Of a stretch of DNA of 64,000 nt, positions 23,433 through 26,556 are shown one piece after another; positions within the stretch are counted from its first letter, which is position 1; every line of letters begins with the position of its first letter. The notes beneath the pieces were generated by a model, which did no database searches, was not told the origin of the DNA, and saw only the letters and a list, made by a program, of their open reading frames with translations. A program made the translations under genes and the position numbers. The DNA is from Natrialba magadii ATCC 43099 (GTDB lineage: Archaea > Halobacteriota > Halobacteria > Halobacteriales > Natrialbaceae), in the NCBI RefSeq assembly GCF_000025625.1, contig NC_013922.1, positions 1,364,001-1,428,000 of the forward strand, written 5' to 3'.

Positions 23433-23457
23433 CCCCGCCCTTCACAGTAGACGCCGA
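23433..23457 (+). repeat. Left terminal inverted repeat of the IS
   Basis: 25 bases beginning CCCCGCCCT; pairs with 24781-24805 with four mismatches (TC/GA and AC/TT relative to the right repeat). Confidence 0.85.
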
Positions 23458-23489
23458 ACCTAATTTTCGGCGTTGCTGGTAGGGTGGCT

Positions 23490-24602
23490 ATGGTCAAGAC
23501 AACCGAAGCAAAACAAGTCTGTCGCGCCGCATCTACCGTGGTTTATCCAGCACTCGATTTCGGAATCAAACCTTGTGGGAGCTATACGAGAGAGGACTTC
23601 GAGAAAGTCCTCTCTCGTGTCGCCTTTGAACAAGAGTTCGCTAACACTGCTGGAAAAACGTGCCAACTCGATCATGGCGAACCCGTCGACATTACGTCGA
23701 CGGCTCGCAACGGGCTCGCAAAATCACTGCTCTACCATCTTCGGAACTTGGAAGCGGACGCTATCGACGGTCAGTTCGATGGCGTCCGCGACGATCTCTT
23801 CGAGATTCTTCGGAAACAACGGCTCTTGCCTGACTGTGTTGATGTTGCGATCGATCTCCACGAATGGCGGTTTTACGGCGATGCAGACACTGACCACGTC
23901 CTGATCACCTATCCCGATCAAGGAACCAATCGAACGTACTGTTTTGCGACGATCTGTATCGTCGCACCGGGAACGCGATTCACGCTCGACGTGCTGGCGC
24001 TGGAGGCGAACGGTTTCCGCGAAAAGCGCGAAGCCGTTCGCTCGTTGCTGGAAACGGCACAAGAGTATGTCTCGATTAGACACGTCTACCTCGACAGAGG
24101 CTTCTACCAGGTCCACGTCGTTGCGGAACTCGAACAGCTCGACGTCGATTATATCGTCCGTGCACGCCCGAGTAAGGGGATGAAAGCCCGTCTCAGCGCC
24201 GGCGCTGAGACGGTCGTTGACGAGTATCTCGTGCAACGGAAACGTAAGCCAACCGCTTCAGTTGCAGTGACTGTGTTTGCTGTGCCACATCGGTCAACCG
24301 AGGACGAGCACGTCTGGTTCGTTACGAATCTCGACCTTGAGCCTGAGGCGGCGAGAGCGTACGCGGCGGCGTTTCGCCGCCGCTGGGGAATTGAGACTTC
24401 CTACCGCCAGATCGGAGACTTTCTCCCGAGAACGTCATCGCCGACGTTCTCGGTGCGACTGTTCTACTTCCTGTTCGCGGTTTCGATGTACAATCTGTGG
24501 ATCCTCGCAAATGTGCTTGTCTCAGCTGGTGCTGTCCCGGAGAAACCGCCAATCTCGACACGTGTCTTCAGAAAATTCGTCGATGTGACCGATTACGGCT
24601 AG
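23490..24602 (+). CDS. ISH3-like DDE transposase
   Basis: 370 residues from the ATG at 23490 (a GTG two codons earlier is also possible). The catalytic triad of an IS4-like DDE fold can be read: D122 in VAIDLHEWRFYGD, D202 in VYLDRGFY, E302 in RRWGIETSYRQI, the last with the Y..R..E-type spacing. The frame is intact, so the enzyme should be active. It resembles ISH3-family proteins in layout (YHLR, RFYGD, YLDRGFY, IETSYR). The coding sequence is unusually rich in perfect inverted repeats, annotated separately. It has no ACTCGAGT palindrome, unlike most neighbouring genes. Confidence 0.88.
   Translation: MVKTTEAKQVCRAASTVVYPALDFGIKPCGSYTREDFEKVLSRVAFEQEFANTAGKTCQLDHGEPVDITSTARNGLAKSLLYHLRNLEADAIDGQFDGVRDDLFEILRKQRLLPDCVDVAIDLHEWRFYGDADTDHVLITYPDQGTNRTYCFATICIVAPGTRFTLDVLALEANGFREKREAVRSLLETAQEYVSIRHVYLDRGFYQVHVVAELEQLDVDYIVRARPSKGMKARLSAGAETVVDEYLVQRKRKPTASVAVTVFAVPHRSTEDEHVWFVTNLDLEPEAARAYAAAFRRRWGIETSYRQIGDFLPRTSSPTFSVRLFYFLFAVSMYNLWILANVLVSAGAVPEKPPISTRVFRKFVDVTDYG
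23586..23618 (+). repeat. Perfect 14-bp inverted repeat, 5-base loop, in transposase gene
   Basis: ACGAGAGAGGACTT at 23586-23599, loop CGAGA, exact reverse complement at 23605-23618. Confidence 0.95.
23754..23789 (+). repeat. 14-bp inverted repeat with one G-U, 8-base loop
   Basis: Arms 23754-23767 and 23776-23789; the one non-Watson-Crick position is T opposite G, which would pair as G-U in the transcript. Confidence 0.9.
23945..23966 (+). repeat. Perfect 9-bp inverted repeat, 4-base loop
   Basis: TGCGACGAT, loop CTGT, ATCGTCGCA. Confidence 0.95.
24006..24041 (+). repeat. 12-bp inverted repeat with one G-U, extended inside
   Basis: Arms 24006-24017 and 24030-24041 pair except for one T opposite G. 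The interior CGCGAAAAGCGC can continue the stem after a bulged base. Confidence 0.9.
24188..24213 (+). repeat. Perfect 26-bp palindrome in transposase gene
   Basis: CCGTCTCAGCGCC at 24188-24200 is followed without a gap by its exact reverse complement at 24201-24213. Confidence 0.97.
24363..24383 (+). repeat. Perfect 9-bp inverted repeat, 3-base loop
   Basis: GCGGCGGCG, TTT, CGCCGCCGC, just before the codons for the catalytic Glu. Confidence 0.95.
24426..24453 (+). repeat. Perfect 11-bp inverted repeat, 6-base loop
   Basis: CCGAGAACGTC, loop ATCGCC, GACGTTCTCGG. Confidence 0.95.
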
Positions 24603-24661
24603 AGGAAGATCTGTCCGACCGAGATGATCGGTCAGAACGTCGTAACCGAGTGGCAACGCTC

Positions 24662-24688
24662 AGAAACGCCGCCGACAGCGGCGTTTCT
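24662..24688 (+). repeat. Perfect 11-bp inverted repeat after the transposase stop
   Basis: AGAAACGCCGC, loop CGACA, GCGGCGTTTCT followed by TCGTG. It lies 60 bases beyond the stop codon and could end transcription or shield the right end from outside transcription. Confidence 0.9.
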
Positions 24689-24867
24689 TCGTGCCCTTCC
24701 TCGCTGTGTCGCATAGATCGTTGGAGCGCTGCAATCCAAATCGGTTGATCAACCAGTTACGTTCGGCTGTCCGCGTTGAATCGGCAACTACTGTTCAGGG
24801 CGGGGAGGATGTCAAGGCCCGTGTCGCGACCAAACGCTTACTCAGTTGCTCACTGTATCTCATCCGC

Positions 24868-26556
24868 ATGACCAACGACCGGCCGAACATCGTTCTCGTC
24901 CACTGCCACGACCTCGGGACGTATCTGGGCTGTTACGGTGTCGACGTGGAGACACCCCACATCGACAGTCTTGCCACCGACGGCATCCGGTTCGACCGGC
25001 ACTTCGTCACCGCACCCCAGTGCTCGCCGAGCCGGGCGAGTCTGTTCACTGGCCGCCACCCCCACCAGAACGGTATGCTCGGCCTCGCGCACGCCGACTG
25101 GGAGCTCGGCCCCGACGAGCGCGTCCTCCCGGACCTGCTCTGCGATGCTGGCTACGAAACCCACCTCTTCGGCCTCCAGCACATCACCGAGTACCCCGAC
25201 CAGCTCGGCTACGACCACATTCACACCGAACAGCCCCTGACCGTCGAGGCGTCGCCGGCCGTCCACGAAACCGCCCGCGCGAACGCCGTCGCAGACGAGT
25301 TCGCATCCGTACTCGAGTCCGACGGTCTCGGCGACCCGTTCTTCGCCTCGGTCGGCTTCTTCGAACTCCACCGCGTCGAGGAAAACGGTGGCTTCGGCTT
25401 CGAGGGCGACCGGTACGACGCGCCGGCCCCCGAGGACGTGGCCCCACTCGAGTTCCTGCCGGACAGGCCCGGCATTCGGTCGGATATCGCCGAGATCAAC
25501 GGGATGTTGAACGCGTTAGACGAAGCGACGGGGACGGTACTCGAGGCGCTCGACGAGGCAGGTGTCGCAGACGAGACGCTGGTCGTCTTTACGACCGAGC
25601 ACGGGCTGGCGATGCCGCGTGCGAAGGGGTGTTGCTTCGATCCGGGGATCGAGGCGGCGTTGCTCATGCGCTATCCATCACGAATTGACGGTGGCCAGAC
25701 GGTTGACGATCTCATCAGCAACGTCGACGTGTTCGCGACACTCATCGCGGTTGCCGACGCACCGGTGCCGGAGACGCAGCTTGCCGGGGAACGGTTCACG
25801 CCGCTGTTGTTCGGTGACGCGGGCGACGAGGGCGACGAGGGCAACGCGGGTGACGCGGGTGACGCGGGCGACGAGGGCAACGCAGGTGACACGGATGACG
25901 CGGGCGACGAGGGCAACGCAGGTGACACGGATGACGCGGGCGACGAGGGCAACGCAGGTGACACGGATGACGCGGGCGACGAGGGCAACGCAGGTGACAC
26001 GGATGACGCGGGCGACGAGGGCAACGCAGGTGACGCGGATGACACGGATGACGCGGGCGACGAGGGTGACAAGCGCGAGAAGCGCGAGGAAAATAGCGAA
26101 GACAGTGACCGCGGCGACTACGAGCCCCGTGACCGCATCTTCGCCGGCATGACCTGGCACGACCGCTACAATCCGATGCGGGCGATCCGGACGGAGCGCT
26201 GGAAGTACGTCCGCAACTTCTGGCACCTCCCCCACGTCTACATGACGACGGATATCTACTGCAGCGCCGCCGGCCGGGAGATGCGCGAGGAGTTCACCGG
26301 CGATCAGCGCGCCTACGAGGAACTGTACGACCTCGAGGCCGACCCGCTCGAGCAGGAGAATCTTCTACTGGCGGACACGCCCGATACAGTGGACACTCCC
26401 GACCAGCATGGGAGCCGGGACGTTGACGATGTCCGTACCCGACTTCGGGACGACCTCGTCGACTGGATGACCGAGACGGACGATCCGCTACTCGACGGCC
26501 CGGTCGTCCCCAGCGACTGGGAACGCATTCATCCCGAAATGGGCGACGACCGCTAG
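24868..26556 (+). CDS. Type I sulfatase with formylglycine motif and acidic repeat insert
   Basis: 562 residues from the ATG at 24868 (MTNDRPNIVLVHCHDLGTYL). The active-site motif CSPSR is intact, with Cys at about residue 52, the residue converted to formylglycine. Metal ligands are seen in NIVLVHCHDLG and VVFTTEHGLAMP, and RAIRTERWKYVRNF near the C-terminus. Between about residues 317 and 405 an insertion of four identical GDEGNAGDTDDA units plus variants makes a long acidic loop. It needs a formylglycine-generating enzyme, which is not in this window. Likely substrate: a sulfated polysaccharide or glycan (family knowledge; not determined here). Confidence 0.9.
   Translation: MTNDRPNIVLVHCHDLGTYLGCYGVDVETPHIDSLATDGIRFDRHFVTAPQCSPSRASLFTGRHPHQNGMLGLAHADWELGPDERVLPDLLCDAGYETHLFGLQHITEYPDQLGYDHIHTEQPLTVEASPAVHETARANAVADEFASVLESDGLGDPFFASVGFFELHRVEENGGFGFEGDRYDAPAPEDVAPLEFLPDRPGIRSDIAEINGMLNALDEATGTVLEALDEAGVADETLVVFTTEHGLAMPRAKGCCFDPGIEAALLMRYPSRIDGGQTVDDLISNVDVFATLIAVADAPVPETQLAGERFTPLLFGDAGDEGDEGNAGDAGDAGDEGNAGDTDDAGDEGNAGDTDDAGDEGNAGDTDDAGDEGNAGDTDDAGDEGNAGDADDTDDAGDEGDKREKREENSEDSDRGDYEPRDRIFAGMTWHDRYNPMRAIRTERWKYVRNFWHLPHVYMTTDIYCSAAGREMREEFTGDQRAYEELYDLEADPLEQENLLLADTPDTVDTPDQHGSRDVDDVRTRLRDDLVDWMTETDDPLLDGPVVPSDWERIHPEMGDDR
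25864..26033 (+). repeat. In-frame minisatellite, 36-bp units, in sulfatase gene
   Basis: Four identical 36-base units begin at 25864, 25900, 25936 and 25972, with a variant fifth from 26008 and related shorter units on both sides (25816-26070). Encodes GDEGNAGDTDDA repeats. Confidence 0.96.

Follow-up and report, generated by a model that had tools for sequence, protein, structure and literature searches.

Perfect inverted repeats in conserved coding genes are known from the mitochondria of nematomorphs, where both arms encode conserved amino acids and, lying in host respiratory genes of animal mitochondria, measure up to 142 bp each (PMC6649704). In coding genes of yeast, template switching homogenises the arms of inverted repeats and inverts the spacers between them, as scattered events in host genes (PMC8604942). 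Structures in transposase mRNA are known from the 5'-leader control of bacterial insertion sequences (IS), such as IS10, IS50, IS200 and ISPpu9, in which one structure over the start region limits translation (e.g. PMC8450116). For haloarchaea, PMC10134880 reports a control of ISH3 and IS4 transposase mRNAs by SmAP1, asRNA and RNases, with translation apparently repressed and SmAP1 needed for normal transposition. In addition, the SMR-A elements of Haloquadratum use palindromes near the ends of IS605-type transposons and PATEs as insertion sites (PMC3119063).

The window, i.e., the whole 64-kb stretch of DNA that was analysed, carries an IS with hairpins all along its transposase gene. As in nematomorphs, these are perfect inverted repeats in conserved coding sequence with conserved amino acids encoded by both arms, but they are mostly 9–14 bp, form one size class with many per gene, and among the tested genes are confined to mobile-element genes of one archaeal class, across unrelated IS families. 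Arm homogenisation and spacer inversion in coding sequence are shared with the yeast events, whereas the haloarchaeal hairpins form a family-wide conserved array; and, compared with the single start-region structure of the bacterial IS, they are many and extend over the whole gene. The SmAP1 system belongs to the same organism class and concerns the same IS families (ISH3, IS4); the accessible part of its report (PMC10134880) holds no description of coding-sequence hairpins, and the hairpins observed here are a candidate cis element of that control. A search of open-access papers yielded no account of hairpins within the coding sequences of haloarchaeal transposases; a closed paper may have mentioned them before. 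The features of the element are as follows.

23445..24793, plus strand: whole insertion sequence, 1349 bp, imperfect terminal inverted repeats CAGTAGacGCCGA.. / ..TCGGCAActACTG
23490..24602, plus strand: transposase ORF, 370 aa, ISH3-like, DDE_Tnp_1 (PF01609)
23586..23618: hairpin S1, 14 bp, loop of 5 (CGAGA; TCTCG is the inverted form in relatives)
23683..23703: hairpin S2, 8 bp, loop of 5; not conserved
23754..23789: hairpin S3, 14 pairs including one T.G, loop of 8
23945..23966: hairpin S4, 9 bp, loop of 4; not conserved
24006..24041: hairpin S5, 12 pairs including one T.G, loop of 12
24188..24213: hairpin S6, perfect 13-bp palindrome, loop of 0; 4-fold synonymous divergence 0.028
24363..24383: hairpin S7, 9 bp, loop of 3 (TTT/TTC; GAA in relative L014)
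24426..24453: hairpin S8, 11 bp, loop of 6; 4-fold synonymous divergence 0.043
24662..24688: hairpin S9, 11 bp, loop of 5; in the 3' untranslated part of the element, conserved in the clade

The ends of the IS were deduced from copy pairs within one genome (L063/L109, L050/L051) together with the conserved CAGTAG/CTACTG ends. The PF01609 match of the transposase (48 bits against a cut-off of 23, Pfam E 1.7e-12) identifies a DDE transposase with the IS4-related DDE_Tnp_1 fold. By far the best family model is NF033541 (ISH3, NCBIfam), with 152 bits and an E-value of 1.5e-44, which lies below the curated 225-bit cut-off, and the element is therefore classed as ISH3-like in a clade of its own, with about 27% identity to the Halobacterium ISH3-type elements. 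Terminal inverted repeats CAGTAG...CTACTG with a 4-bp target duplication, as in the ISH3 family, were observed in the window copy and in many relatives. No relative of the element was found in viral contigs.

All nine hairpins were found where the sequence-only reading had placed them. Nine perfect stems in the 64-kb window reach 9 bp or more with a loop no larger than 6, and six of them fall within the 1.1 kb occupied by these hairpins. The transposase ORF contains five such stems, against a mean of 0.09 in its codon-shuffled versions; among 2000 synonymous-codon shuffles, the count was zero in 1829, one in 168 and two, the maximum, in 3. These shuffles keep protein, codons and composition, and they assume that codons are exchangeable. 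The other ORFs of the window carry one stem, with 2.4 expected. The stems had further been described as lying in frame in conserved coding sequence, which is accurate for S1–S8, whereas S9 (24662–24688) lies 3' of the stop codon TAG (24600–24602) and is thus non-coding. As stems, S1, S3 and S5–S9 are conserved in relatives, and S2 and S4 are not.

Whole genomes of haloarchaea, contigs from GTDB and plasmids were the sources of the relatives. Nearly all intact relatives with 46–94% protein identity carry 1–5 stems, compared with 0–0.2 in their own codon shuffles, the sole exception being L094 with zero stems. The stem positions are homologous, with S1 present both in the near group and in the group of about 50% identity, S6–S8 in most members of the near group, and a stem 3' of the stop codon in both groups. 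The distant relatives L026 and L105 (33–35% identity) have no stems and fold like their own shuffles (z of -1.1 and 0.1). Two of the checks proposed with the sequence-only reading, on folding energy and on compensatory changes, both came out as expected for a real feature. The mRNAs of ten clade members fold more stably than codon-shuffled controls, with z from -4.3 to -7.5, and paired changes were found in S1 and S3. Over 16 distinct sequences, 92.9% of the cells of S1 pair, against 85.4% when shuffled; five pairs are changed on both sides, one pair being seen as A-T, C-G and T-A, and the covariation score of 0.229 (vs 0.097) was reached by none of 500 shuffles. S3 is 96.2% paired, with six pairs changed on both sides and a covariation score of 0.259 against 0.114 (0 of 500 shuffles). 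When the structures of S1 and S3 were slid along the alignment as a control, 17–49% paired (30–49% for S1 alone), compared with 93–96% at the true position.

The hairpins are conserved in position and in pairing, and they constrain synonymous sites. In the near group, the difference at 4-fold sites of amino-acid-conserved codons is 0.14 in stems and 0.51 outside (p = 6e-9), amino-acid differences amount to 0.072 in stems and 0.196 outside, and parsimony gives 0.77 changes per 4-fold site in S1, S3 and S5–S8, on only 22 stem sites, compared with 4.70 outside. As in described coding palindromes, perfect inverted repeats in a conserved reading frame are found together with concerted evolution of the arms, visible in the paired changes of S1 and S3 and in loop inversion. 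Pairing was similar in broken copies (0.884 vs 0.888 paired, p = 0.95), which look recent.

Loop inversions were observed at several hairpins. The S1 loop, in otherwise matching hairpins, reads CGAGA or its reverse complement TCTCG, and also CCAAG and CTTGG, and the tree of the near group requires at least seven flips of its orientation. In L099, 12 nt of S3 are inverted (8 mismatches direct, 0 inverted); S7 is inverted in L014, and possibly also S8 in L068, where the two differences might instead be two point mutations. Matches that were reversed only (0) or complemented only (1) are almost absent. The inversions show that, at least now and then, strand fold-back takes place in the DNA itself, and they are the marks of template switching between inverted-repeat arms known from the yeast genes. 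Such an event can alter neighbouring amino acids at one stroke, e.g. FEK to FLE at S1, and the frequent inversions change amino acids in place and serve as naturally kept traces of archaeal template switching.

The G-U pairs in two of the stems had been taken as pointing to selection on RNA, and this argument fails because G.T and A.C departures are equally common. Over the distinct hairpins of about 150 haloarchaeal transposase genes of many families, they number 36 and 39 in total, with 9:10 at interior positions, 11:14 at the outer flanking pair and 16:15 at the loop-closing pair; a smaller set showed the same balance, and the counts per stem lean either way. The sense-strand RNA hairpins also lack an advantage, with 55 more stable in the sense and 49 in the antisense orientation. 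Covariation, as in RNA regulatory structures, is thus accompanied by no preference for wobble pairs on the transcribed strand in this set, and from the earlier interpretation the real constraint stands while the G-U pairs are dropped as a sign of RNA. Correction by template switching could mask a wobble bias, which is an argument rather than a test. No common sequence motif in stems or loops was seen on inspection.

Among the genes tested, it is the DDE transposases of haloarchaea in which the hairpins are concentrated; most of the haloarchaeal DDE-type IS have them, and the families that bear them are ISH3, ISH8/IS4, IS66, IS630, ISH6, IS701 and IS5. The samples comprise tens to about 150 genes picked by similarity search, and the bacterial controls are few and mostly from Alphaproteobacteria. 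Among annotated genes on plasmids of Halococcus, Halobacterium and Halobiforma, 51 stems lie in 18 transposase genes (1.2 expected), 3 in 68 neighbouring host genes (3.0 expected) and none in three TnpB genes. The PF01609 (IS4/IS5-type) transposases from relatives of the host contain 30 stems with 1.45 expected and haloarchaeal IS66 transposases 29 with 0.75 expected; IS6 transposases contain 7 with 0.45 expected and zero in 21 of 26 genes, and 24 TnpB genes 7 with 0.75 expected, most of them having none. In Halobacterium salinarum, hairpins were counted for ISH3B (8), ISH27 (5–6), ISH32 (6), ISH8 (2–4), ISH10 (5), ISH11 (3) and ISH28 (2), and none were found in TnpB, IS200 TnpA, ISH29 and ISH7. 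An unbiased scan of 800 kb for stem clusters located them in one Natribaculum plasmid, where nine of the ten classified ORFs with clusters are transposases (ISH3, IS66, IS4, IS630 and IS1182/IS5 type). Bacterial IS4/IS66 homologues of equal or higher GC carry 1 stem (0.75 expected), a mixed bacterial set carries 8 (0.8 expected), five of the eight in one Deinococcus Tn3 gene, and the few genes from other classes of the same phylum carry 4 (0.5 expected), three of the four in one gene. The signal, at 20–40 times expectation, singles out the transposase genes of one archaeal class and does not extend to the genes next to them. Stems of 9–14 bp are evenly represented by length and longer ones drop off sharply, loops are mostly 3–7 nt with a peak at 5–7, and the whole hairpins measure about 22–36 nt; their positions are even along the genes with no concentration near the start, and the codon phase of hairpin centres shows a preference similar to that in shuffles.

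The Natribaculum plasmid (G136:C2; L138, L154, L147, L136, L153, L155) is crowded with transposase genes tiled with hairpins, from at least five IS families, and has 0.31 stems per kb over 400 kb, compared with 0.05 in parts of the genome that contains the window. The Tn3 transposase of a Deinococcus radiodurans plasmid (L192, 24883–27855), with five perfect stems against 0.1 expected, is the only clear bacterial case in a small sample.

The window IS itself is inserted exactly in the tetraloop of another hairpin, CCCCGCCC-TTCA-GGGCGGGG, and the loop TTCA is duplicated, as given by the following features.

23433..23440: left arm CCCCGCCC of the target hairpin
23441..23444: left TTCA copy of the target-site duplication
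24794..24797: right TTCA copy of the target-site duplication
24798..24805: right arm GGGCGGGG of the target hairpin

Relatives such as L051, L052, L053, L020, L093, L069 and others are located in similar GC-rich hairpin sites with TTCA, TTTA, TAAA or TGAA, and matching hairpins occur about 20–35 nt 3' of TnpB stop codons, so that the end hairpin of TnpB/IS605-type elements is the apparent target of the IS clade. Insertion would split this end hairpin, possibly the guide-RNA scaffold. SMR-A (PMC3119063) likewise prefers a hairpin at IS605/TnpB ends; it measures about 110 bp and has neither transposase nor target duplication, whereas the window IS is autonomous and its 4-bp duplication is the hairpin tetraloop. 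The target hairpin is separate from the internal hairpins. At the stop region of one TnpB gene (L253), six hairpins of 8–10 bp are spaced by about 24–25 nt and continue beyond the gene, forming a regular array where other TnpB genes have one end hairpin.

Judged from sequence patterns, we assign a probability of roughly 0.4 to the reading that the hairpins are selected, mainly as a brake on expression in the transposase mRNA, and that their perfection is owed in part to template switching in DNA. Under such a brake, selection would favour a low and releasable transposase expression; a row of hairpins in the mRNA would slow or stop ribosomes and invite mRNA processing, so that an abundant transposase mRNA would yield little protein until an RNA chaperone, e.g. 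SmAP1, melts the hairpins, and template switching at DNA fold-backs would tend to keep the arms matched. The majority of haloarchaeal mRNAs are leaderless, and the hiding of a ribosome-binding site in a 5' leader is thereby largely unavailable, which would explain a brake inside the gene and the lack of one in bacterial relatives. According to PMC10134880, 4 of 33 mobilome proteins were detected in H. salinarum despite abundant mobilome mRNA, three of the four being TnpB; ribosomes pile up at the 5' end of an ISH3-family mRNA; deletion of SmAP1 lowers IS4- and ISH3-family transposition; and the authors mention a hairpin-melting potential of SmAP1. Given this gap between protein and mRNA, the pile-up and the SmAP1 effect, a brake would explain the concentration of hairpins in haloarchaeal DDE genes, and TnpB, prominent among the detected proteins, has no hairpins in the H. 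salinarum genes tested here. Against an expression brake stand the missing wobble signature and sense-strand advantage, as selection on mRNA only should tolerate G-U, and the even placement of hairpins along the gene; furthermore, protein levels and SmAP1 are tied to the hairpins by correlation only and in another species, TnpB and DDE transposases differ beyond hairpins, and most IS6 transposases are without hairpins though control should be needed there too. Tentatively, unrelated haloarchaeal DDE families might have convergently evolved coding arrays of hairpins of about 30 nt as a lineage-specific control, probably a translation brake released by SmAP1, which, where mRNAs are leaderless, would stand in for the 5'-leader control known from bacterial IS.

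A purely mutational origin, in which fold-back template switching homogenises arms and inverts loops so that the hairpins perpetuate themselves without use, as a parasitic coding palindrome, is considered somewhat less probable. IS would be more exposed to it than host genes, since repair synthesis follows transposition; it fits the loop inversions in S1, in S3 of L099, in S7 of L014 and possibly in S8 of L068, the strand symmetry of the mismatches, and the scarcity of hairpins in IS6 and TnpB, which move by other routes. Arm homogenising with spacer inversion is known from the yeast genes (PMC8604942), and repeat conversion has been proposed for the nematomorph palindromes (PMC6649704). However, the stem amino acids are more conserved than those outside and not less, host genes of the same genomes show no excess, and stems rarely exceed 14 bp, though conversion should let them grow. 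Flips at S6–S8 are also rare (0–1) while about 4.7 substitutions per 4-fold site accrued outside, and such a slow correction seems insufficient for the near-zero synonymous change there, unless non-inverting correction is far commoner. Mutational conversion accounts for strand symmetry and DNA fold-back but not for the concentration in haloarchaeal DDE genes. Polyploidy with gap repair as the cause was set aside as weak, with no support from the few genes of other classes of the phylum, a cyanobacterial IS66 and a Thermus IS630, and with little in the other lineages sampled, though the Deinococcus Tn3 gene has its five stems. Less probable still is a function of the hairpins or cruciforms in DNA, selected, for example, for binding host or transposase proteins, for blocking replication or transcription, or for serving as landing sites; the strand symmetry, the direct evidence of DNA fold-back, the preferred loop of 3–7 nt with a stem ceiling near 14 bp, and the insertion of the window IS into hairpin loops, by which target structure matters to the IS, speak in its favour. 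On the other hand, the feature is common to families with different transposases, so that one transposase-binding role is insufficient, stems and loops share no sequence motif on inspection, and an unsystematic look at transposase genes turned up none with an insertion in an internal hairpin. Chance, or an artefact of composition or codon usage, is practically negligible, being rejected by the codon-shuffled controls and ruled out as well by the conservation, the covariation and the host neighbours at expectation.

Of the three other readings, the expression brake, the mutational drive and the DNA-level role, an mRNA brake with template-switch upkeep covers most of the data. If an expression brake is at work, the hairpins would be the missing cis element of the reported haloarchaeal transposition control, and the role of SmAP1 is directly testable; if the cause is mutational, an IS-specific DNA process would be rewriting coding sequence. 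The hairpins point to an undescribed restraint of transposons or an undescribed DNA-level process acting on them.

Downstream of the transposase gene, a sulfatase-like ORF (24691–26556) contains acidic-peptide GDTDDAGDEGNA repeats, with a long run at 25670–26150 that represents an in-frame tandem expansion.
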